Assembly (NCBI GenBank): GCA_003979035.1
Contig: RXOA01000009.1
Coordinates: 1-33,379, forward strand
Reading direction: 5' to 3'
Source of the DNA: Candidatus Bipolaricaulota bacterium
GTDB taxonomy: Bacteria > Bipolaricaulota > Bipolaricaulia > UBA7950 > UBA9294
Length of the DNA: 33,379 nt
Shown: in pieces, positions 7,680-18,871 of the stretch
How positions within the stretch are numbered: the stretch's first letter is position 1
Layout: each line of letters starts with the position of its first letter
Position numbers and translations under genes: made by a program
Notes under the pieces: generated by a model
Database searches by the model: none
Told to the model about the DNA's origin: nothing
Seen by the model: only the letters and a program-made list of their open reading frames with translations

Positions 7680-8237
7680 CTACGGCTTGCACACCGCGAG
7701 CACGTTCCTTGCGAAGCTTCTTGCCGCTTCAAGATCCTCCGGGGTGGGATGTCGGCGCGCATCCTCGATGTATGTGATCCACTGTTTTTCGTCGGGAATC
7801 ACGCTGTTGCGGATGAACGTTTCGATTTCCGGTGACGGCGCTCCCTGGCAGCTGAAGAATCCGAGGAATTCAATGCCCTTCTCTCGGCAGGCGTCTTCGA
7901 ACGAACCCGGACATCTGCCGGCCCAACGTTCGTGCATCTCCTTCTTCCACGCAGTGCCCTCCGGCATCATCGTCGAGTGCGTGACGAAGCCGGCGAGTCT
8001 CAGGGCTGAGCCCGCCGGGATCCGAGCGAGGAATTCCTTTGCCGGAGCTGCAATGTCGGATGAATGGCACGTAGACCCGAGGAAGACAATCTCGAAGCTC
8101 GGAAGGACATCCACGTCCACATCGCCAATCGAAGCGACACGCACCTTGTGGGCTAGGGCTTTCGCCTCTTCACCGATGGATGTTGCGATTCTCTTGGTAT
8201 TCCCCGTTTCGCTGAAGTACGCAACCAGGATCTTCAC
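7680..8237 (-). CDS. Flavodoxin-family protein
   Basis: A 185-residue soluble protein with the flavodoxin fold. The N-terminus 'MKILVAYFSETGNTKRIATSI' contains the FMN-phosphate-binding loop S-E-T-G-N-T, and 'EIVFLGSTCHSSDIAAPAKEFLARI' corresponds to the second FMN-contacting loop region. Such proteins carry electrons or act as NAD(P)H:FMN-type reductase partners in the cytoplasm, often in anaerobes. The ORF track begins at 8528, but the upstream 97 residues show no resemblance; GTG 8237 follows AGGGAGGCAGGTCT and starts the first beta strand directly. The C-terminal ~40 residues (HPTPEDLEAARSFARNVL) form a predicted helix typical of the 'flavodoxin family protein' group. Partner and reaction are unknown. 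Confidence 0.83.
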   Translation of the reverse strand: MKILVAYFSETGNTKRIATSIGEEAKALAHKVRVASIGDVDVDVLPSFEIVFLGSTCHSSDIAAPAKEFLARIPAGSALRLAGFVTHSTMMPEGTAWKKEMHERWAGRCPGSFEDACREKGIEFLGFFSCQGAPSPEIETFIRNSVIPDEKQWITYIEDARRHPTPEDLEAARSFARNVLAVCKP

Positions 8238-8754: not shown

Positions 8755-9642
8755 TCAGAAGCCCTCGAGAACTCTCACAAGGATGATGGCGAAGCCGATC
8801 AGCCCGCCGAGCAGGAGCCACTCTGCTATGCTCGAGGACGGCTCTTCCGATTGACCTTCGGCAGTCGTCTCGGGATCTGTCACGGGTTCCGTTTCAGAAT
8901 CTGCCTCTTGGTCCACCTCTGGATCGATGACGCCGGCTTGAGCGAGCCAGGATGCGTCGGGAGCAATCTCTGCCTGGCTGCAGAGCTGCACTGCACGAAC
9001 GGCGTCGATGTCAGAACAATTCGACCCAAGGCGCGCATCGAACTGAGGCTTGGTCAGATTCTCTTGGGCGATCCAGACAGCCGCCTGGATCGCGCAGGCG
9101 CCTGGGTGCTCATCTTGTCGGACGGATTCGCGAAGCACACGCTCGACAGGGGCAGATGCCATCCCCAGGATTCGATAGATCGTCCCCGCATCCGGCAGAC
9201 GTTGGCTTGCGTCAAGGCAGTAGGCTTCAAGCCCCACCGACCGTGTTTCATCCGGCTTCAATTCGATGAATCGGGATGCCTCCATGTTGATGGCGACGTT
9301 GAACTCCACCGGGGAACGAACCACAAGCCGTTGAACTCCGGCTATGTCGCATCCCAGAAGCAGCCCAGGATTGATGGTTACGGCAAGCGTGATGTTCAGC
9401 GTGGACGTGATCGACATATCGATGGCAGCACCGATGCTCCCGGTGGCCTCCAGCTCTACGTCAACGTATCCTCGATTTGCGGCCTCAAGAAGCGTGATCC
9501 GGTTCTCGATCCAGGCGATGCTCTCATCTGCGGATGCGGCCGATCCGGAAACGAACAACAGGAGAATCGCGGCGATGCAGGCAGATACAACCGCAACCGC
9601 CGATACCGAGCACTTCTGCCGAGCGACCTTGCTTCCCACCAC
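8755..9642 (-). CDS. Secreted, C-terminally membrane-anchored protein of unknown function
   Basis: I do not recognise the family. From GTG 9642 the protein is 295 residues. It has a basic N-terminus and a hydrophobic signal segment (VVSACIAAILLLFVSGSAASA) with a plausible AxA cleavage site. The ~200-residue exported domain has four cysteines that could form disulphides. An acidic Glu/Asp/Thr/Pro-rich spacer (PEVDQEADSETEPVTDPETTAEG) follows, then a C-terminal membrane helix (WLLLGGLIGFAIILVRVL) with few residues after it. This looks like a surface protein held by its C-terminus, with the acidic spacer acting as a stalk. The start is uncertain: GGGAGG lies rather far (about 14 bases) upstream of the GTG pair at 9642/9639, and the ORF is open to 9768. 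Confidence 0.6.
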   Translation of the reverse strand: MVGSKVARQKCSVSAVAVVSACIAAILLLFVSGSAASADESIAWIENRITLLEAANRGYVDVELEATGSIGAAIDMSITSTLNITLAVTINPGLLLGCDIAGVQRLVVRSPVEFNVAINMEASRFIELKPDETRSVGLEAYCLDASQRLPDAGTIYRILGMASAPVERVLRESVRQDEHPGACAIQAAVWIAQENLTKPQFDARLGSNCSDIDAVRAVQLCSQAEIAPDASWLAQAGVIDPEVDQEADSETEPVTDPETTAEGQSEEPSSSIAEWLLLGGLIGFAIILVRVLEGF

Positions 9643-9987: not shown

Positions 9988-10036
9988 AAACCCTTCGACC
10001 TGGTGGCCGAAGGGCGCGTTTCGAACGATTGGCACC
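9988..10036. repeat. Distal 49-bp direct repeat (putative att site copy)
   Basis: This segment matches 13900-13948 at 47 of 49 positions. On the minus strand it reads GGTGCCA, the last bases of a tRNA including CCA, then ATCGTTC, then the terminator hairpin CCCTTCGGCC-ACCA-GGTCGAAGGG followed by a T-rich tail. Identity stops at the tRNA acceptor, so this copy has only the very 3' end of tRNA-His plus its terminator, as expected for the far attachment site of an island inserted at a tRNA 3' end. Confidence 0.8.
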
Positions 10037-10118
10037 CCGTGGTTGACTACTTTCGAACGACTCCGGCAATTAGCAGCGCCAGCCGATTCTTTCCTACAGG
10101 GTCTCAGAAGGAGGCGCA

Positions 10119-10178
10119 GTGACCGTTCGCATCTCGCTGGAGGCATCCGGACTGTTCAACTTCACGGTAGGGAGGTAA
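10119..10178 (+). CDS. Possible 19-residue leader ORF
   Basis: AAGGAGG (10108-10114) precedes a GTG that opens MTVRISLEASGLFNFTVGR and stops at TAA, four bases before the ATG of the next gene. The last codons of this small ORF contain the GGGAGGT ribosome-binding site of the next gene, a layout seen in translationally coupled leaders. It could equally be the remnant of a longer gene. No family is recognised. Confidence 0.3.
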   Translation: MTVRISLEASGLFNFTVGR

Positions 10179-10182
10179 CAGC

Positions 10183-10977
10183 ATGTCGCCAGATTGTAAC
10201 TCCAAGTACATTGGTGCGCTTGGAACAATGCCCATGCACTTGCACTTCACTCCATATATACTACTTGGTATGACTGTCGTAGCCATGTGGTATGAGGATA
10301 GAGGACGCAGACGGGAATTGGCAGTGGTTAGTGACAGGCGGATGTTGGCAAAGGACCTGCAAACTGGTGAGGCCGAAATCGATGATGATAGCCATCTGAA
10401 GAGTATTGCCTCTGGAGAGTGTTGTGTCGCCTGTGCTGGAGGGGTGATCTTGTCCGATGCTTTGTTCTGTGCTCTAGCCGGGCGAAAGGATTGGCTTGAA
10501 GAATCGACGGATTGCCATTTTGACGTAGCGCGGCGCATCGAAGAGACGCCGCATCTGGTTCGCTTCTCGTTTGATGATGCTGTTTCGATCGTGAATCAGG
10601 AACTACCCAAGCTGCTAGATGCCATCCCGCGTAACACGCTTCTCGGCGACGCTTTGCTGCATGAGACAGGTGTGCTTGTGGCTGGAAGAAGCGGTGGGAA
10701 GCCGCTCATTGTCGAATGGTCATCCGAGAACGACTTTGCCGCAAGCCCGAAGCCTGACAATCGTGATGGCGGCATCCTCCTGCGTTGGCCGAAGAAATAT
10801 GGGAACGAAGCCGCGGCGAGATTTCGGAGAAAGCTGACTCCCCAGAATGGTCTTCCTGTCGAGCTTCGTGCGAGAAACGCTGTGAAGTACGCGAGCTCTC
10901 TTGGTCTCCTGGTTTCTCCAAGCTACTCATTGCGCCTGATGTCAGAGGGTTTTGCATTGCATGAGGGCTCCTGCTAG
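10183..10977 (+). CDS. Proteasome/HslV-like Ntn-hydrolase family protein
   Basis: A 264-residue protein whose segment 'MTVVAMWYEDRGRRRELAVVSDRRM' resembles the first strands of proteasome-beta/HslV-type N-terminal nucleophile hydrolases ('TT-V-hydrophobic ... ADSR'). Thr31, Asp51 in 'VSDRR' and Lys73 in 'HLKSIASGECCVACAGG' line up with the nucleophile Thr1, Asp17 and Lys33 of that fold, and 'ACAGG' with the conserved AG-G turn. The best ribosome-binding site (GGGAGGTAACAGC) supports ATG 10183, giving about 30 residues before Thr31; ATG 10270, directly before the Thr, has no good site. The extra N-terminus could be a removable propeptide. No unfoldase gene is nearby. The superfamily call is moderate; substrate and activity are unknown. 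Confidence 0.55.
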   Translation: MSPDCNSKYIGALGTMPMHLHFTPYILLGMTVVAMWYEDRGRRRELAVVSDRRMLAKDLQTGEAEIDDDSHLKSIASGECCVACAGGVILSDALFCALAGRKDWLEESTDCHFDVARRIEETPHLVRFSFDDAVSIVNQELPKLLDAIPRNTLLGDALLHETGVLVAGRSGGKPLIVEWSSENDFAASPKPDNRDGGILLRWPKKYGNEAAARFRRKLTPQNGLPVELRARNAVKYASSLGLLVSPSYSLRLMSEGFALHEGSC

Positions 10978-11091
10978 CCCTCAAGTGGGAATGGGCTTGT
11001 AGCTCCCTGTCATGGTGCCATGCTTTGAAGCCTTTGCTTGAAGTAATTGGCGCGAAGCTGCCGTTCTCCGTTGCAGGTCGTTGTGGTAGGC

Positions 11092-11808
11092 CTAGAACGA
11101 GTAGGTGCTGATCTCGTAGATCTCAATCGTCTCGATCCGCTCGTCCTCACCAATCCAAAGCTCAAACTCGAATGTTGCACCCGCAGTGATATCCGACAAC
11201 ATGTCACTTGAGCTATCGAGCACAACATTTGACGAATCAAGGATTCGCGCATGGATGAAGACGGTTCCTAGTTCGCGGCCACTCACGTTTCTGGCACGCC
11301 CGGTCAACGTCCATATCCAGCCTGACGTGTCGATTTCATGACTGAGGATGTCTATCTCGGACTCTGACGCAGTGATGATTACATTGATCCCCGACTGTGG
11401 CGGAGTTGGCTGCGGATTGTCAGGCGGGGTAGGTGTCGGATTGACGGGCGTGACCGGAGCAGCAGGCGGCGTCACCTGGACCGAGGAAGAAGTCATATCC
11501 GAAGCCCCGTCGTTGTCCGTGACGCTCAGGGATACCGTGTAAGAACGTGCCGTTGAGGTTTCGTATGTGTGGGTTGCTGTTGCAGTGTTCGCCCAGCCTC
11601 CATCTCCGAATTCCCAGTGATAGGTTGCGATCGATCCATCTGGATCATGCGAAGGATCTGCATCGAACGTGACGGGAAGGCCATCGATGGTCGTCGAGAA
11701 TGCGGCAATCGGGGATTGGTTGGAGTTGAAACAGCCTCCCAGGATGACTGCACAACCCACAACGAGCAACGCAGCGATAGTTCGTCTCACGCAGCTGGAT
11801 GCGCTCAC
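11092..11808 (-). CDS. PKD-domain lipoprotein with C-terminal FxLYD-like domain
   Basis: A 238-residue exported lipoprotein. Residues 10-26 form a signal peptide ending in the lipobox 'LGGC' (Cys26 is the lipid attachment site). Residues ~31-112 are a PKD domain with 'SHDPDGSIATYHWEFGDGG' and 'YTVSLSVTDNDGA', the usual WxFGDG core. A proline/threonine-rich linker follows (PVNPTPTPPDNPQPTPP). Residues ~143-235 resemble an FxLYD domain ('GRARNVSGRELGTVFIHARILDSSNVVLDSSSDMLSDITAGATFEFELW'). Both domains are extracellular binding modules, so it is likely a surface adhesion or scaffold protein. GTG 11808 follows GGAGGAAGCCAA and overlaps the stop of the upstream gene (GTGA), implying translational coupling. 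Confidence 0.8.
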   Translation of the reverse strand: MSASSCVRRTIAALLVVGCAVILGGCFNSNQSPIAAFSTTIDGLPVTFDADPSHDPDGSIATYHWEFGDGGWANTATATHTYETSTARSYTVSLSVTDNDGASDMTSSSVQVTPPAAPVTPVNPTPTPPDNPQPTPPQSGINVIITASESEIDILSHEIDTSGWIWTLTGRARNVSGRELGTVFIHARILDSSNVVLDSSSDMLSDITAGATFEFELWIGEDERIETIEIYEISTYSF

Positions 11809-11993
11809 TTGGCTTCCTCCTTCTCCAGGTATTGCAGAATTGCCTCAACAACGAGGTAGTTGACGGATCGATCACGCTTCTTCGCGAGCTTGATTGGCCG
11901 CGCGACGGGGCGTCGTCCATTCTCGCTTGAGGAATTTAGATGGAGAGCTTGTCTTCTAGCGCTCTTGGTTTCATAGCCACCCTTCCCGTGCAT
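11805..11993 (-). CDS. Small ribbon-helix-helix-like DNA-binding protein
   Basis: A 62-residue protein whose second half, 'IKLAKKRDRSVNYLVVEAILQYLEKEEAK', matches the helix-turn-helix part of the Arc/CopG ribbon-helix-helix fold ('RS-x2-YLV-x-EA-x2-YLE'), typical of small repressors and antitoxins. The expected N-terminal beta strand is not clear in this frame. In another frame, an ATG just downstream opens 'MKPRALEDKLSI' followed by a stop, which looks like the missing strand, so the gene may be damaged by a stop and frameshift. Its stop overlaps the start of the lipoprotein gene, suggesting one operon. No toxin is apparent next to it. Confidence 0.5.
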   Translation of the reverse strand: MHGKGGYETKSARRQALHLNSSSENGRRPVARPIKLAKKRDRSVNYLVVEAILQYLEKEEAK

Positions 11994-12027
11994 GAGAAAA
12001 TACGTAAGCAGAACACCTTAATGAAGA

Positions 12028-12056
12028 CTTATTCGACGCGATGCATCTTATGACAA
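12028..12056 (-). promoter_or_regulatory. Putative promoter of the RHH-lipoprotein pair
   Basis: On the minus strand TTGTCA (12056-12051) is separated by 17 bases from AATAAG (12033-12028), which would start a transcript about 28 bases before ATG 11993. It matches the sigma70-type consensus at 9 of 12 positions; not proven. Confidence 0.45.
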
Positions 12057-12169
12057 CGCGCGTTCGTGACGAAAGCAGTGAAGAGAAGAGCGTGTTAGAT
12101 GAAAAATCCACGGGAAGTATGACTTCGGCTACAATGTCGAAGAAACTTTGCAGGACAAGGAGGAGAGTC

Positions 12170-12676
12170 ATGCGCATGAAGACGATTGTAGTGGTCGGGA
12201 TTTGTCTCGCGTTGCTTACATTCGCGGCGCTTGGGAAAGGTGCAAACCGTGAGCGCTTCGAAGGAGAAGGCCTGCAAATCACATTTCTCGAAGAACCGTC
12301 AGAATACACAATATCAGCCGACGCTGAGTGTTGGGTCCGGCATGGCTGGGGACGATCAGAGACATATGGCCAGCCCGGCGCGAACAGCAGGTTTCTTCAT
12401 GAGACAGGGTGGGTCATTGTTGGCGGAGGTTATTTCAAGCTGTTCATCAATGGGGACGAAGTTAAGATGAACTTCAGGCATTACACCGATCCCCTAGATA
12501 CGCCGGGCCACTACGAAATGAATTGTGATTGGTATGTCCAGTTCCCGGCGGGATACTTCGTAGCCGGGGAGACATATGAGCTAACTGCCGAATGGGGTGA
12601 GAGGAACCCGCGCAATTCCGTGCAGAGCATTGGAGTGCCATACCGGGTCACACGGTGGCTGCACATTAGTCCATGA
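12170..12676 (+). CDS. Secreted protein of unknown function
   Basis: From ATG 12170, preceded by AAGGAGGAGAGTC, the protein is 168 residues. It begins with a basic N-terminus and a hydrophobic stretch (TIVVVGICLALLTFAALG) typical of a Sec signal peptide. The mature part is rich in aromatic residues and charged turns (SADAECWVRHGWGR, GWVIVGGGYFKLFINGDEVKMNF, YFVAGETYELTAEW), suggesting an all-beta domain. 'F.AGETYELTAEW' near the end resembles the closing strands of immunoglobulin-like sandwich domains, but I recognise no family. The ORF-track extension to 12041 is unlikely because it lacks a ribosome-binding site and would bury the signal peptide. Codon use is A/T-richer than the flanks, in keeping with the island. 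Confidence 0.65.
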   Translation: MRMKTIVVVGICLALLTFAALGKGANRERFEGEGLQITFLEEPSEYTISADAECWVRHGWGRSETYGQPGANSRFLHETGWVIVGGGYFKLFINGDEVKMNFRHYTDPLDTPGHYEMNCDWYVQFPAGYFVAGETYELTAEWGERNPRNSVQSIGVPYRVTRWLHISP

Positions 12677-12849
12677 GGATCGACTGAGAGCCACGCTATT
12701 GCCCACGTTGGGCGTGAGGCGTAGCCGCCCCCCCCCCCGGATCAGGAACAAACGTTACATCCTGTTGGTGCTGAAGGACCGTCAGCATCGATGTAACACA
12801 ATTGCCATTCGTGATGCTAGTCGTGTAACGGGACTGTGTGGCAACCGGT

Positions 12850-13050
12850 GTCATGCACTCGCGAGGTGAACGCGTCGTAGCAGGAACAAACTGAACCATG
12901 ATCCACATCGGTTTGCGTGACGACATACCCGGGAGACGTGAACGATCTTGACTGTCCCGGTGCGAGCTGCGAAATCTGCTCAAGCAAGCCGTCAAGTGGT
13001 CCTGCCACCTCGATGTCCTCAAGAAGCACATTGCCGGCGCTACGAACGCG
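12850..13050 (-). pseudogene. Fragment of a DUF11/DUF7507-type surface-protein repeat
   Basis: On the minus strand the frame reads 'VRSAGNVLLEDIEVAGPLDGLLEQISQLAPGQSRSFTSPGYVVTQTDVDHGSVCSCYDAFTS'. This follows the pattern of DUF11-like repeats of large cell-surface proteins (V-N-x-GN-x-L-x-DV-x-V ... LAPG-x-S ... YTVTQ-x-DVD-x-GSV-N-A-A). Only about one repeat is present, with no start, no signal peptide and no further repeats, and it collides head-on with the recombinase remnant at ~13040. Downstream, the frame breaks around an 11-C run (12728-12738). It is best read as debris from a larger gene. Confidence 0.6.
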
Positions 13051-13896
13051 TATTTGAGATCTATGCTCACCAAGATATCTCCCTTTCTCAGCTGGTTGGT
13101 GTTGCACGGGAGATGGGACTAAAGTCGAGACGCGGGCATGGCCCGGTTAAGGCAACGCTACACCGGATCTTGCAGCATCCGATCTATTACGGGGCGATCA
13201 GGTGGGAGGGAATCCTCTACACCAGCAATCATGAACCACTGATCAGCAAGGAGTTGTTCGATCGAGTTCAGGAACGGCTGAGGGGCGGGAGCTCCCCGTT
13301 GACGAAACGCTCCTTCCCATACAGGGGGATCCTCACGTGCGGCTATTGCGGCTGCAAGATCACAGCATCCCTTGCGAAGAAGCGGTACGTCTTCTACCAC
13401 TGCACCCATGGCCGTGGCAAATGTGAACAGCCATACATCCGCGAAGGAGCATTGAGTGACCTGTTGCTGCCTGTGGTGGAAGGCGTTCACATCTCAGAGG
13501 ACCTTGCCAAGGCCCTGCTGGACAGGATGTACGAAAGACACAAAGATGAGATCGAGAGGCGCGAACGGGAAGTTGGAGGGATTGCAGAAGGAAGAGCACA
13601 AGCTTCGTGCTAGGCGGGATCGTGCGTACGAAGACAACCTAGATGGCAAGATCACGGAAGAGCGATGGCTGCAGCTTGAGGGGCGATGGGGAAATGAGGC
13701 CCAGGGGCTTAGCCGCAGGATCACAGTTCTTGGGGAGGAAACCGGACCCGCAGTTGACGAGGCGCACGAAACTTTCGAACTCCTGAAACGCGCTCCCAGT
13801 CTGTATCTTCAGCAAAACCACGAGGAACGTGCTCGGCTACTCAGAACGCTACTTTCGAACTGTATCATCAAGAACGAAAGTGTAGATCCTGTCTAC

Positions 13897-13926
13897 AAAA
13901 AACCCTTCGACCTGGTGGCCGAAGGG
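13897..13926 (-). terminator. Rho-independent terminator of tRNA-His
   Basis: On the minus strand, CCCTTCGGCC-ACCA-GGTCGAAGGG forms a 10-bp stem (one G-U pair) with a 4-base loop, followed by TTTTTT. It lies 15 bases past the tRNA CCA end and probably ends the hisS-lyase-tRNA transcript. The same DNA on the plus strand encodes KKPFDLVAEG at the recombinase C-terminus. Confidence 0.85.
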
Positions 13927-13948
13927 CGCGTTGTGAACGATTGGCACC
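13900..13948. repeat. tRNA-proximal 49-bp direct repeat (putative att site)
   Basis: Pairs with 9988-10036 (47/49 identical). It spans the last bases of tRNA-His, the spacer and the terminator stem, and marks the junction between the island and the tRNA. Confidence 0.8.
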
Positions 13949-14019
13949 GGGGACGGGACTCGAACCCATGACCTCTTGGTCCACAGCCAAGCGCTCTAAC
14001 CAAGCTGAGCTACCCCGGC
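13942..14019 (-). tRNA. tRNA-His (anticodon GUG), without G-1
   Basis: A complete cloverleaf on the minus strand: acceptor GCCGGGG/CCCCGGT, D-arm GCTC-AGCTTGGTTA-GAGC, anticodon stem CTTGG/CCAAG with loop CTGTGGA (anticodon GTG), variable AGGTC, T-arm ATGGG-TTCGAGT-CCCGT, then G73 and an encoded CCA. The base before G1 is T, so the usual genomically encoded G-1 is absent; position 1-72 is a G-U pair and the discriminator is G instead of C. This departs from the standard bacterial tRNA-His (G-1:C73) and partly resembles the alphaproteobacterial type (no G-1, U72, but A73 there). It lies 64 bases past the lyase stop in the same direction and ahead of a strong terminator. Confidence 0.93.
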
Positions 14020-14082
14020 AGGTTCGAGCTGATGGTAGCCACGGGATTCGCGGTTGTCAATTGGATCGGCCGTCCGCTTCAG

Positions 14083-15888
14083 TCACTCCGGTAGAGCACG
14101 AATGGCCTTCCGAAGGACCGATCCGTCGGAGACGAGTCTGCGCATCGCCCCAATCAGATCGGACAGCGTGCGATCCTCGGCGATGAACGGGATTCCCGCG
14201 TCTCGCACCAGTGCGTGGACAGCGGCGGCGGACGCGCTGAGCGCGCTCGTGTCTCGGTTTGTCCGCAAGTCAAGTGCCTGCAGGGCACACAGCAGCTCGA
14301 TGGCGATCACCGTTTGGACGTTCCCGATCATCTGCCGTGCGTGGCGCGCGGCGATTGGCGCCATCGACACGTGGTCCTCGGAGTTGCTCGATGTGGGGAT
14401 CGAGTCTACGCACGCCGGATGGGCGAGCACCTTGTTCTCACTGACCAGCGCGGCGGCTGTGTACTGCGCCAGCATCAGCCCCGAATGGAGCCCCGGTTCG
14501 CCGGCGGAGAGATGCGCGCGGAGTCCGCGGTTGTGGTGAGGATCGAGAAGAAGCTGGCTCCGCCGCTCGGAGATGCTTCCCAGCTCGGCAACGGCCAGCT
14601 TGAGGTAATCGCAGGCAAGCGCCACTGGTTCAGCGTGGAAATTGCCGGCGGCGTAGGCGTTCCACAGGCACACCGTGGGATCTTCGGGAAACGCCGGTGT
14701 GCCGTCATCCACGAAGAACAGGGGGTTGTCGGTGACCGCGTTGATTTCGTCGGAAAGGATCTCCCACACGTGGTCGATCGCCCGCAACGCGGCGCCATGA
14801 ACCTGGGGGATGCAGCGCAGCGAATAAGAGTCCTGGACGTCGTGGGCCGTGTTGACAAGAGAGCTTCCCTGAAGGAGCGACGTGACCTGAGCCGCCGCAT
14901 CCATTTGCGGCTTGTTGGAGCGCGCCTGGTGGACGCGCGGATCGAGCGCGCGCGTGAATCCGCGCATTGCCTGGAGTGACATCGCGCCGGAGAGGTTGGC
15001 GGTCCCCAGCAGCATGTCGGCGTCGTAGGCGGCGAACACGGCGAATGCTGTGGAGAGGTTGGTTCCGTTGGTCAGCGCGAGGCCTTCCTTGGCTTCGAGG
15101 TGATCGAGCGGCGCGAGGCCTGCGGCAGTGAGCGCTTGACCGCCATCGGCGGGACATTGCCCAGGAGAGGGGGTTCCGATCCAAGCCTCGCCTTCGCCGA
15201 TTAGCACCAGGCCGAGGTGGGCGAGCGGGCAGAGGTCTCCGGATGCGCCGACCGATCCCTGTTCGGGGACGACGGGATGTACCTGCCGGTTGAGCATGTC
15301 GACCAACAACCGGACGATCTCCGGGCGCACGCCGGAGTATCCTTCGACGAACGCGCGGGCACGAAGCAACAGCATCGCGCGAACCACTTCGATCGGCGCT
15401 GGATTGCCGGCGCCGGCGGCGTGGCTGCGAAGGATGTTGACTTGCATTCGGGACACACTGTCGGGATCGAACAGCAGCCGATCGCGGTTGGCGCCGAAGC
15501 CGGTAGTCACGCCGTAGATGAACAGCGGCAGCTTGCTGGCGACATCGACCCCCGTCCGTTCCTTGATGGCCGCGACGATGGCCTCCTCGGACGCATCCTT
15601 TGGAAGAGAAGACAGCGTGTCGCGCGCCTCCCGCACGGCTGCGGCAATGTGCGCGTGGCTGGCGCGGCAGCGATCGGCCCAATCGCCGCAAAGCGAAACC
15701 TCTGCGTAGTTCCCTTGTGCATTTCCGCGGGCGACAGCAACCACGTCATGGATCGTCAGTGGCTGACCGGGGCAAAGCTCGATCGGCGCGGAAACGCCAA
15801 CGGCTGAGCCATGACGGGGGCGATTGGCGATCATGGACCTACAAGCATGACCGGAAGCATCATCGGCTGACGAAGCATGCGGTTTCAT
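14083..15888 (-). CDS. hutH: Aromatic amino acid / histidine ammonia-lyase
   Basis: A 601-residue MIO-dependent lyase that removes ammonia from histidine (to urocanate) or another aromatic amino acid, in the cytoplasm. The cofactor-forming Ala-Ser-Gly is residues 215-217 in 'GSVGASGDLCPLAH', and 'YGVTTGFGANRD' (125-136) is the active-site tyrosine loop. 'RSHAAGAG' (154-161) carries the Ser-His pair typical of histidine lyases, where tyrosine lyases have His-Leu and plant phenylalanine lyases Phe-Leu. It is about 90 residues longer than standard HutH: an N-terminal extension of ~35 residues and an insert before the tyrosine loop (DASEEAIVAAIKERTGVDVASK). ATG 15888 is supported by TAGGAGATTCG. 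It lies between hisS and tRNA-His, on the same strand. No other hut genes are present, so substrate is probable, not certain. Confidence 0.85.
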   Translation of the reverse strand: MKPHASSADDASGHACRSMIANRPRHGSAVGVSAPIELCPGQPLTIHDVVAVARGNAQGNYAEVSLCGDWADRCRASHAHIAAAVREARDTLSSLPKDASEEAIVAAIKERTGVDVASKLPLFIYGVTTGFGANRDRLLFDPDSVSRMQVNILRSHAAGAGNPAPIEVVRAMLLLRARAFVEGYSGVRPEIVRLLVDMLNRQVHPVVPEQGSVGASGDLCPLAHLGLVLIGEGEAWIGTPSPGQCPADGGQALTAAGLAPLDHLEAKEGLALTNGTNLSTAFAVFAAYDADMLLGTANLSGAMSLQAMRGFTRALDPRVHQARSNKPQMDAAAQVTSLLQGSSLVNTAHDVQDSYSLRCIPQVHGAALRAIDHVWEILSDEINAVTDNPLFFVDDGTPAFPEDPTVCLWNAYAAGNFHAEPVALACDYLKLAVAELGSISERRSQLLLDPHHNRGLRAHLSAGEPGLHSGLMLAQYTAAALVSENKVLAHPACVDSIPTSSNSEDHVSMAPIAARHARQMIGNVQTVIAIELLCALQALDLRTNRDTSALSASAAAVHALVRDAGIPFIAEDRTLSDLIGAMRRLVSDGSVLRKAIRALPE

Positions 15889-15940
15889 CGAATCTCCTAT
15901 TCACGTACTTGCCTGTCTTGGGTCGTGGGCGTTCTTGTGT

Positions 15941-17422
15941 CTAGGTGGCGTAGCGATCAAGGATCTCGCGAACTCTCGCAACGAGATCCGTACGGGCGAC
16001 GGTGATCTGCGCCGGCTGGCTGGCCAGCCACTCTTTGCGGTCCTCGATTCCCTGGGAGAGCTCCCTTCCCTGGCGCAGGTCCTTTAGCGCAACCTCATCA
16101 TTCTCCCGCTCATCCCCTCCGATGATGACGGCGACCGTCTTCCCGGTCTGGTCGCCGTACTTCAACTGGCGTCCGAAACGTCCGGCTCCGATATACAGTT
16201 CGGCGTTGATCCCCGCTTGCCGCAATTCGGCGGCCGCGGCCTGATAGTCGGACAGGTGATCGGGGTCCATCACCGTCACCAACACGGGCGCGGTGGCGAC
16301 GCGATCGGGGAGTCTGCCCAGCACGCGAAGCGCGTCGAGCAGCCGATCGACGCCAATCGACGCGCCGGTCGCCGGAATCTTCTTGCCGGTAAACCGTTGG
16401 ACAAGATTGTCGTAACGACCTCCGCCGAAGACGCTGCCGAATTGCTTGGCCTCGCCCTTCTCATCGCGGATCTCAAACATCAGCGTCGCTTCGTACACGG
16501 GGCCGGTGTAGTAACCGAGCCCGCGGACGATGGTTGAGTCGAATGCGACACGGTCTTCGCTGTAACCGGCCGCAGCCAGAAACGCGTCGATCTCGCGCAG
16601 TTCCTGCACACCGGCCTGCCCCAGCTCGGATCCTCCGACGAGCGTATCGAGGCGCTCGCAGAACTCTGTTCGGGAGGTGCGGGGAAGCTGCAGATAACGG
16701 TCCACCGTCTCGATCTGTGAAGGCTCGAGTTCGGCCCCAGGGGTGAAGTCGCCCGATTCGTCCAGCCGTCCTTTGCCGAGCAAGGCGAGCACGCCACTGC
16801 GGCCGATTCGGTCGAGCTTGTCGACGGCACGTAGCGCGGTCAGCGCTTGAGGCGATAGCTCGGCTCCCGGCTCGGCGTAGGCGACACCCGTCGCTTCGAG
16901 AATTCCCCCGAGGATCTTGCGGCTGCTGACGCGGACGAGGTACTCGCCTTGGCCGATGCCCAGCTCTTCGAGCGCATCGGAAATCAGACAACACGCCTCG
17001 GCGTCGGCAATCACGCTGGGAACGCCCACCGTGTCGAAGTCCATTTGATAGAACTCGCAGAAACGGCCCGGACCCGGCTTCTCCATGCGCCACACGGGAG
17101 CGATCTGGTAGCGGCGAAACGGAATCGGCAGGTCGGGATACGACGCGGCGACGCGCGACAACGGCGCGGTGAGGTCGTAACGCAACGCGACCCACTCCCC
17201 ATCCGCATTGCGCAGGGCGAAGATGCCTCCTTCGGGCGTGTCGCTTTCCGGCAAGTACTTGCCGAGCACATCCACGTATTCCAGAGCCGGCGTTTCCAGG
17301 GGAAGGAAACCGTAGCGCTCATAGACTTTGCGCACCGAATCGATCAGCTGTTGGCGGGCCGCGGCGAGTGCCGGTAGGGAATCCCGGAACCCCTTCAGCA
17401 AGCGTGGCTCGAGTGTTGTCAT
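15941..17422 (-). CDS. hisS: Histidyl-tRNA synthetase, divergent (alphaproteobacterial-like) type
   Basis: A 493-residue class II synthetase that charges tRNA-His with histidine. Visible: 'LLKGFRDSLP' at the N-terminus, 'ALRYDLTAPLSR' (79-90), motif 2 in 'RRYQIAPVWRMEKPGPGRFCEFYQMDFDTVG' (103-133), the histidine-binding 'RGLGYYTGPVYEA' (300-312), motif 3 in 'GASIGVDRLLDAL' (353-365), and a C-terminal anticodon-binding domain (~380-493). 'EKPGPGRF' and the 'ADAEACCLISDALEELGI' segment are, from memory, typical of the alphaproteobacterial HisRS clade; the protein is also longer than E. coli HisRS (424). It is the first gene of a unit with the lyase (52 bases on) and tRNA-His. Confidence 0.93.
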   Translation of the reverse strand: MTTLEPRLLKGFRDSLPALAAARQQLIDSVRKVYERYGFLPLETPALEYVDVLGKYLPESDTPEGGIFALRNADGEWVALRYDLTAPLSRVAASYPDLPIPFRRYQIAPVWRMEKPGPGRFCEFYQMDFDTVGVPSVIADAEACCLISDALEELGIGQGEYLVRVSSRKILGGILEATGVAYAEPGAELSPQALTALRAVDKLDRIGRSGVLALLGKGRLDESGDFTPGAELEPSQIETVDRYLQLPRTSRTEFCERLDTLVGGSELGQAGVQELREIDAFLAAAGYSEDRVAFDSTIVRGLGYYTGPVYEATLMFEIRDEKGEAKQFGSVFGGGRYDNLVQRFTGKKIPATGASIGVDRLLDALRVLGRLPDRVATAPVLVTVMDPDHLSDYQAAAAELRQAGINAELYIGAGRFGRQLKYGDQTGKTVAVIIGGDERENDEVALKDLRQGRELSQGIEDRKEWLASQPAQITVARTDLVARVREILDRYAT

Positions 17423-17764
17423 CGCTCCCCCTTCACCCGCCGTTTCACGGCAAGTCTCCTGTGATCCGATTGTCGTATCCGCGAGAATATAGTTCGACAG
17501 TGCTCTCCAGGCAACCGAGCCCGGAAAGAGATGCGCGGAGGATCATCGGAGACAGGCCGTGCCTTCGCCGGATCTCGAGGGTCCGAGAGAATGGTCACGA
17601 CTGCCGAAATCGTTCCCGGTTGCCGCCTGAGTGTTGGCGGATTACGCTTGGCCTGTGGCGTGGAATCGATCCAGTGATTGGATCGGGAGATATCGAAAGC
17701 GTGGTGTGGCATTGATCCGCGAGTCGGATTGAGGGACAACGGAAGCCAAGGAGGTTGGTAGAGG
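17423..17764. other. Divergent intergenic region hisS / M29 peptidase
   Basis: About 340 bases containing the hisS promoter. The right end holds the AAGGAGG ribosome-binding site of the M29 gene. I see no clear promoter for the plus strand and no structured leader. Confidence 0.5.
17486..17514 (-). promoter_or_regulatory. Promoter of the hisS unit
   Basis: On the minus strand TTGCCT (17514-17509), a 17-base spacer and TATATT (17491-17486) give a good sigma70-type promoter, placing the start of transcription roughly 55-60 bases before the hisS ATG. No convincing promoter is seen between hisS and the lyase. Confidence 0.65.
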
Positions 17765-18871
17765 ATGGATCCCCGTATCGAGAAAGTGGCGGATGTCCTG
17801 GTCGGATACTCGGTGGCTGTCAAACCGGGCCAGAAGGTGATGATCTCCGGGACAACGGCCGCTGAGCCGCTGATCAAGGCATGCATGATCAAAGTCCTGC
17901 AGGCGGGTGGGCATCCGTTCTTGCGGGTCAGCCTTCCCGAGGCGAGCAGCCTTCACTACGAGTACTCCTCGGACGAGCAGCTTGCGCACATCCCCGATCC
18001 GCTGAAGCTGGTGTACGAGAAGTACGATGCGCTAATCACCATCTTGAGTTCCACCAACACCAAGGAACTGAGCGAGGTCCCGCCGGAGAAGCTTCGGCTT
18101 AGCTCGCAAGCAAGTAAGGGCTTGTTCAAGACGATGATCGAGCGTACGGCAGCGGGTGACCTCAACTGGGTTCTTGCGATGCATCCCACCGATGCCTACG
18201 CGCAAGACGCGGCAATGAGCAGGCACCAACTTGAGGAGTTCGTCTACGGGGCGTGCCTTCCCGATCCGGACGATCCGATCGGGTATTGGCGAGAGTTCTC
18301 GACCTGGCAACAACGGATCGTCGACGCGCTTGATCCGTGCAATACGTTGCACGTCGTCGCCCCGAACGTCGATCTCAGGATGAACATCAAAGGAAGGATC
18401 TTCGAGAACTGTGATGGCAAGAAAAACATGCCCGACGGTGAAGTGTTCACCGGTCCGGTGGAGGACAGTGTCGAAGGCCACGTGAAGTTTTCGTATCCCA
18501 CGACCTACCAAGGACGGCGGCTCACCGGGGTCGAACTATGGTTCGAGAAGGGACGCGTCGTCAAGGCTCGAGCGGACAATGACGAGGCGTTTCTGCTGCA
18601 GATGCTCGATGCGGACGAAGGGGCGCGATACGTCGGTGAGTTCGCGATCGGGACGAATCGGGGCGTAAAGCGGGCAATCGGGAACACACTGTTCGATGAG
18701 AAGATCCACGGTAGCTTCCACATGGCGGTCGGGGCCGGGATGCCCGAGACGGGAAGCAAGAACGAATCGGCGATTCACTGGGACATGGTTTGCGATCTCT
18801 CGGCGGAAGGAAAGATCTACGCCGATGATGCGCTGGTGTACGAAAAGGGAGAGTTCCTCATCGGAGACTGA
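17765..18871 (+). CDS. M29 family aminopeptidase (AmpS/PepS type)
   Basis: A 368-residue cytoplasmic metallo-aminopeptidase that removes N-terminal residues from peptides using two metal ions. Metal-ligand regions appear in order: 'MPDGEVFTGPVEDS' (Glu, ~222-235), 'RYVGEFAIGTN' (Glu, ~288-298), 'HGSFHMAVGAGMPET' (His, ~315-329) and 'AIHWDMVCDL' (His and Asp, ~336-345). The N-terminal 'YSVAVKPGQKVMISGTTAAEPLI' is the standard opening of the family. The start is supported by AAGGAGGTTGGTAGAGG. Its stop overlaps the start of the phosphatase gene (TGATG). Together with PepT and the S9 enzyme it points to active peptide use. Confidence 0.92.
   Translation: MDPRIEKVADVLVGYSVAVKPGQKVMISGTTAAEPLIKACMIKVLQAGGHPFLRVSLPEASSLHYEYSSDEQLAHIPDPLKLVYEKYDALITILSSTNTKELSEVPPEKLRLSSQASKGLFKTMIERTAAGDLNWVLAMHPTDAYAQDAAMSRHQLEEFVYGACLPDPDDPIGYWREFSTWQQRIVDALDPCNTLHVVAPNVDLRMNIKGRIFENCDGKKNMPDGEVFTGPVEDSVEGHVKFSYPTTYQGRRLTGVELWFEKGRVVKARADNDEAFLLQMLDADEGARYVGEFAIGTNRGVKRAIGNTLFDEKIHGSFHMAVGAGMPETGSKNESAIHWDMVCDLSAEGKIYADDALVYEKGEFLIGD

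Follow-up and report, generated by a model that had tools for sequence, protein, structure and literature searches.

A G-1-independent histidyl-tRNA synthetase and tRNA-His, probably imported as a cassette, in a Candidatus Bipolaricaulota genome

The window analysed here, i.e., a stretch of 33,379 nt, is contig RXOA01000009.1 of a Candidatus Bipolaricaulota assembly (GCA_003979035.1; contig C9 of bin G000). It encodes a tRNA-His without a G at position -1 (G-1), a histidyl-tRNA synthetase (HisRS, gene hisS) of the G-1-independent type and, between the two, a histidine ammonia-lyase-like gene. We consider it highly probable that the three genes form an orthogonal G-1-independent cassette, which was imported together from a Planctomycetota-like donor, replaced the host's standard pair and later underwent a change from A73 to G73 in the tRNA along with an arginine-to-cysteine exchange in the enzyme. 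Our evidence comprises the sequence features of both partners, the covariation of tRNA-His and HisRS type among relatives, the HisRS phylogeny, the linkage of the genes and the native genes that flank them.

The tRNA-His and its synthetase

A sequence-only reading of the window had described a tRNA-His with U-1, a G1-U72 pair and G73 next to a HisRS with an EKPGPGRF-type motif 2, and both descriptions are confirmed. ARAGORN and Rfam agree in placing a sole tRNA-His (GTG) in the window. Its minus-strand sequence reads U-1, G1 C2 C3 G4 G5 G6 G7 ... C66 C67 C68 C69 G70 G71 U72, G73, CCA. That is, the acceptor end starts with G1·U72 followed by C2:G71, and the base encoded at -1 is U. Since CCA is encoded right after the discriminator, position 73 is unambiguous. 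G1·U72 is common to all aligned G-1-less tRNAs, to which the window tRNA-His is 67-81% identical, compared to 64-68% for the tRNA-His of its own family.

The motif 2 of the enzyme, EKPGPGRFCEFYQMDFD, carries the G-1-independent signature EKPGPGRF. Within the motif-2 loop, Gly is found where E. coli has Gln118 (EKPG), and Cys122 (codon TGC, 17059-17057) takes the place of E. coli Arg123. The signature is shared with the Alphaproteobacterial type, to which the window HisRS is 48-56% identical. The closest enzymes from Planctomycetota and the RA.bin91 phylum reach 53-60%, while identity to a standard (f1) HisRS of the own family is about 24%. When the GTDB was scanned with an alignment as query, three metagenome-assembled genomes (MAGs) of Planctomycetota (60, 57 and 58%) and 'bacterium RA.bin91' (56%) outranked all Alphaproteobacteria among the matches listed; a scan of GTDB contigs with a single protein sequence found no close relative of the window HisRS. 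Judging from its sequence, the window hisS looks intact: it departs at only three of the 105 columns that are highly conserved across 99 G-1-less enzymes.

Related enzymes were also seen outside the cellular genomes. Four IMG/VR contigs (L338, L339, L340, L343) encode HisRS that are 45-51% identical to the window's, i.e., in the range of the G-1-less type; these contigs may be prophage flanks of Alphaproteobacteria.

Relatives, covariation and gene linkage

The G-1-less enzymes are hereafter called long HisRS. In our tree, all of them, including the window's, form one clade (support 100/100), while the short HisRS of Planctomycetota fall outside. The Alphaproteobacterial enzymes make up a single branch (100/98) inside this clade. 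The window HisRS branches among the non-alphaproteobacterial members, where its exact position lacks resolution. In topology tests, a sole clade of the window and the Alphaproteobacteria was weakly rejected (p-AU 0.032), and monophyly of all non-alphaproteobacterial members was not rejected (p-AU 0.173). Thus, the window enzyme groups with the Alphaproteobacterial-type clade and not with the standard enzymes. By this tree, its G-1-less system is no separate origin. The sequence-only reading had proposed a second lineage with a co-evolved or transferred pair; what stands is a transferred pair in a non-alphaproteobacterium, while an independent origin is contradicted.

We surveyed HisRS in 392 Planctomycetota genomes and in seven genomes of the RA.bin91 phylum. 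Long HisRS are carried by 16/392 of the former and by 5/7 of the latter, which is a small phylum. The tRNA-His genes of the Planctomycetota carriers were read in G100, G101, G102, G130, G138, G163, G200, G218, G220, G229, G234, G235, G245, G260, G275 and G289. All 16 show G1·U72 with A73 and have T, C, A or G at -1; the five RA.bin91-phylum carriers show U-1 with U72/A73. Hence, G1·U72 and A73 are found in 21/21 readable long-HisRS genomes, and G-1 is not conserved. Planctomycetota with short HisRS and a parsed tRNA-His keep G-1 and C73. That is, the type of the tRNA-His follows the type of the HisRS. For G277, the pattern search gave no tRNA-His. We found no paper on G-1-less tRNA-His in Planctomycetota in our partial coverage of the literature.

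Two details of these genomes may be added. Some of the Planctomycetota A73 tRNA-His genes do encode a G at -1 (L185, L217/L256, L240, L261), and the HisRS of G220 (L268:4157-5851) carries about 74 extra residues, inserted in frame midway along the protein.

In the window, hisS, the lyase gene and the tRNA-His gene share a strand and are separated by 52 and 63 bp. A tRNA-His directly upstream of hisS and co-directional with it is found in nine other genomes, namely G234, G218, G235, G220 and all five RA.bin91-phylum carriers. In three Planctomycetota the lyase gene accompanies hisS: it is the next gene downstream in G220 and G138 and lies close by in G101. G220 has all three genes of the window next to one another, but in the order tRNA-His, hisS, lyase. 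The window lyase matches PRK09367 above cut-off and the hutH model TIGR01225 just below it (537 bits vs. a cut-off of 539). In the lyase tree it pairs with the gene of G102 (100/97), a Planctomycetota relative with which it shares an N-terminal extension, beside those of G220 (93/87) and G138 (82/90); deeper branches are weak. The lyases of the window's own phylum lie apart, 13 of them in a 100/100 clade. Given this grouping and the three Planctomycetota in which the lyase accompanies hisS, the transfer probably involved a cassette of hisS, lyase and tRNA. As to a role of the lyase, we can only guess that it hitch-hikes in the block or trims free histidine. No paper on a hisS/lyase cluster was found within the same partial literature coverage.

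What sets the window apart is the combination of G73 and Cys122. The position of E. coli Arg123 is occupied by Arg in 98/99 other G-1-less enzymes and in 20/20 outgroup enzymes, and its exchange is one of the three departures of the window HisRS mentioned above. According to the literature, the E. coli enzyme reads G-1 and C73 through Arg123 and Gln118 (PMC10100707). A73 is described as a minor element in Caulobacter (PMC5370408), such that a switch to G73 may be mild; for one Alphaproteobacterial enzyme, G1:U72 together with A73 was reported to be critical (PMC7590224). The comparison is suggestive of a co-change of G73 and the arginine in one genome, and the loss of the arginine might relate to reading of G73. 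Earlier, G73 had been taken for a new combination. This holds against the 21 relatives with A73, but a 121-kb phage contig from IMG/VR (L345), which encodes at least 19 tRNAs in 12 kb, has a tRNA-His at 8160-8234 with the same U-1, G1·U72 and G73.

G-1-less tRNA-His with a divergent HisRS is described for the Caulobacter-type 'RRCH clade' of Alphaproteobacteria (PMC3937112, PMC9976931, PMC7590224, PMC5370408). The window shares with this type the HisRS clade, Gly for Gln118, G1·U72 and the lack of an encoded G-1. It differs by G73 instead of A73, by Cys instead of Arg at the Arg123 equivalent, by its non-alphaproteobacterial host and by the linkage of hisS to tRNA-His and lyase rather than to hisZ-hisG. 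The original work on the Alphaproteobacterial pair is reportedly that of Ardell & Andersson (2006), Wang et al. (2007) and Yuan et al. (2011). With the Planctomycetota and RA.bin91-phylum systems the window has in common the closest HisRS (53-60% for most), G1·U72 and the linkages to tRNA-His (nine genomes) and lyase (three genomes), while theirs combine A73 with Arg and have the tRNA-His before hisS. Compared to the standard bacterial type of its own family, the window shows the same GUG anticodon and G1·U72, but U-1, G73, Gly and Cys where the standard type has an encoded G-1, C73, Gln118 and Arg123. G-1 is also dispensable for HisRS of eukaryotes such as Trypanosoma and Acanthamoeba, which belong to separate host groups (PMC9976931).

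Joint import and its alternatives

The host's own line has a different histidine system. Among 100 genomes of its phylum, a HisRS of the window type occurs in G000 only, the next best being 37% identical. The hisS of the own family are standard, i.e., they mostly score about 480 bits with TIGR00442 (window: 341) and have the motif 2 EKPQKGR-RQF, and the family's tRNA-His have G-1, G1·U72 and C73. For 32 family relatives, a standard HisRS and a G-1/C73 tRNA-His were seen wherever either gene was found. On these comparisons, the window HisRS is foreign to the host's own line.

We propose that a block of HisRS, lyase and tRNA-His genes was acquired horizontally from a Planctomycetota-like donor and that the host's standard HisRS and G-1/C73 tRNA-His were then lost. 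The imported pair would most likely work as in Caulobacter: RNase P would trim the transcript to G1, and G-1 would be neither kept nor added, such that the mature tRNA has no base at -1. The window HisRS would then charge this tRNA by recognising, in place of G-1:C73, the GUG anticodon and the G1·U72 end, with a relaxed requirement at position 73. In the window's lineage, A73 would have become G73, along with the change of the motif-2 arginine to cysteine. Since a native HisRS needs G-1:C73 while the imported type does not, neither half would fit its resident partner, and both must therefore arrive together. This need would explain the linkage of enzyme and tRNA, and a cassette makes a viable import possible.

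The bin comprises 1.38 Mb in 141 contigs, is 70.8% complete and has 3.8% contamination. None of its other 24 tRNAs is a tRNA-His, so the second, standard copy asked about earlier is absent from the bin, and the only other match to a HisRS profile is a weak fragment (E 2e-9, 691-aa frame). With just 71% of the genome at hand, the lack of a second tRNA-His is likely rather than proven. A native HisRS and tRNA-His might thus be encoded in the missing 29%, such that the host uses both pairs or keeps the foreign one as an accessory, and several tRNA-His copies do occur in some surveyed genomes. We regard this as unlikely, though worth keeping in mind: both native genes would have to be missing, for which the chance would be about 8% if they are independent, and the window hisS looks intact.

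Alternatively, the contig could be misbinned or chimeric, i.e., the hisS-lyase-tRNA segment of a Planctomycetota-like organism could have been joined by assembly or binning. The Planctomycetota relatives of HisRS and lyase and the fragmented bin would fit, as would the left 9 kb of the window, whose tetranucleotide profile agrees less well with the genome (r 0.562 vs. 0.674 ± 0.079, slightly low, within the observed range). On the other side, the M29 aminopeptidase gene lies only 343 bp from hisS and is 61-65% identical to genes of the own family, and it is accompanied, as in family members, by a metallophosphatase gene that is 49-60% identical to theirs. TsaD is 61-68% identical to the own family, and relatives show the DUF1385-TsaD block and its neighbours in an unchanged order. 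The tetranucleotide profile of the right flank agrees with the genome as well (r 0.739 vs. 0.770 ± 0.046), and no other tRNA-His or HisRS is present in the bin. Given these native flanking genes, we judge misbinning to be quite improbable. They also bear out the earlier impression that the surroundings are not alphaproteobacterial: like the bin as a whole, they are those of another phylum.

A derivation of the pair from Alphaproteobacteria instead of Planctomycetota-like bacteria would agree with the common clade and the 48-56% identity to their enzymes. Yet Planctomycetota are best among the matches listed, the joint clade of window and Alphaproteobacteria has a p-AU of 0.032, and links of hisS to lyase and tRNA-His occur in genomes of the Planctomycetota and RA.bin91 type, whereas the annotated plasmid-borne hisS of Alphaproteobacteria lie in hisS-hisZ-hisG. 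Such a donor therefore has very little probability. Finally, a convergent loss of G-1 from the lineage's own HisRS, for which protists with an independent loss offer a precedent (PMC9976931), can practically be dismissed, as it is already contradicted by the position of the enzyme inside the G-1-less clade (100/100), its identity of about 24% to a standard HisRS of the family and the closer match of the tRNA to G-1-less tRNAs.

Several observations nevertheless count against a joint import with a subsequent shift to G73. The window lyase shares just 58% identity with its closest relative, the G102 copy, which is not adjacent to hisS. The gene order differs, with the tRNA-His behind the lyase in the window and before hisS elsewhere. 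Given the 70.8% completeness, native hisS and tRNA-His could lie outside the bin, and an artefactual join somewhere between 17.4 and 17.7 kb is possible, against which composition alone is no safeguard. No second genome among those surveyed combines G73 with Cys; each of the two rests on one base, such that a sequencing error is possible, and both are transitions relative to the relatives' consensus. Furthermore, the chance that one of three unusual changes hits the few N73-contacting residues is about 10%.

If the joint import holds, the G-1-less histidine type would be wider than thought and move between phyla. A change of tRNA identity has rarely been seen to cross phyla, and a joint move of enzyme and tRNA would explain how a rule can be imported that conflicts with the resident one. 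One paper held that the trait arose a single time in bacteria (PMC3937112), and another describes a transfer from eukaryotes as unsupported (PMC5370408). For the Alphaproteobacterial HisRS, whose origin is debated, the Planctomycetota relatives are concrete candidates for the source or for a sister group. It is conceivable, though we would not yet count on it, that the identity arose in Planctomycetota-like bacteria rather than in Alphaproteobacteria, that a portable tRNA-His/HisRS cassette, often with the lyase, spread among at least four phyla, one transfer founding the Alphaproteobacterial rule, and that the window's version shifted to a G73 read without the motif-2 arginine. In practical terms, the systems may offer new orthogonal HisRS/tRNA-His pairs, one of them with a G73 rule.

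Features of the locus and mobile-element traces

Table 1. Positions of the features discussed, in window coordinates.
Feature	Position	Strand	Basis
Degenerate serine-recombinase relic, running into the tRNA-His 3' end	12948..13971	+	Pfam PF07508, PF13408; frames
Terminator-like 11-bp hairpin and T run, just past the tRNA-His 3' end	13902..13927	-	consensus scan
tRNA-His(GUG), CCA encoded	13942..14019	-	ARAGORN; Rfam RF00005 67.1 bits; sequence
Promoter-like site TTGACA-17-TACCAT, 12 nt upstream of tRNA-His	14032..14060	-	consensus scan
Histidine ammonia-lyase-like gene (P0002), 601 aa, between hisS and tRNA-His	14083..15888	-	NCBIfam PRK09367 557 bits
hisS, G-1-independent-type HisRS (P0001), 493 aa	15941..17422	-	TIGR00442 341 bits; identities; tree
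Motif-2 loop R112-MEKPGPGRFCEFYQ-126	17045..17089	-	alignments; residue roles from PMC10100707
Promoter-like site upstream of hisS	17486..17514	-	consensus scan
M29 aminopeptidase, native flank, divergent from hisS	17765..18871	+	61-65% to own-family members

The features of the locus are summarized in Table 1. Synthetase and tRNA had been assumed to share one transcript. Their common strand and short gaps agree with one unit by position, but with its own promoter-like site and hairpin the tRNA-His may be transcribed alone.

The relic at the 3' end of the tRNA-His retains the C-terminal part of the protein, with its Recombinase and Zn-ribbon domains, distributed over two frames; a catalytic domain was not found by the Pfam search. 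It sits in the GC-poor stretch 10000-13900 (GC 0.543), which is the only compositional outlier of the window (tetranucleotide r 0.297). Likely, 10000-13971 is the remnant of an element integrated at the tRNA-His. When the window was searched for a repeat of the tRNA-His 3' end, by which the opposite boundary of an integrated element would be recognised, only a 13-base match at 8904 was obtained, which stems from the anticodon region instead of the 3' end.

Serine recombinase genes also adjoin tRNA-His in the Planctomycetota genome G130 (L259 / L364, G130:C520) and in one member of the window's family (L078, G083:C69); their products are 27-32% identical to the relic. In G275:C627, two copies of the tRNA-His 3' half lie about 22 kb apart (L362 ~922; L363 ~3057). 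By eye, tyrosine-integrase-like and DNA-methyltransferase-like genes are found between them, which looks like a mobile element that integrates at tRNA-His. The window relic, the G130 recombinase and the G275 half-copies together suggest tRNA-His as an integration target, and integration at tRNA-His would be a plausible vehicle of the cassette transfer.

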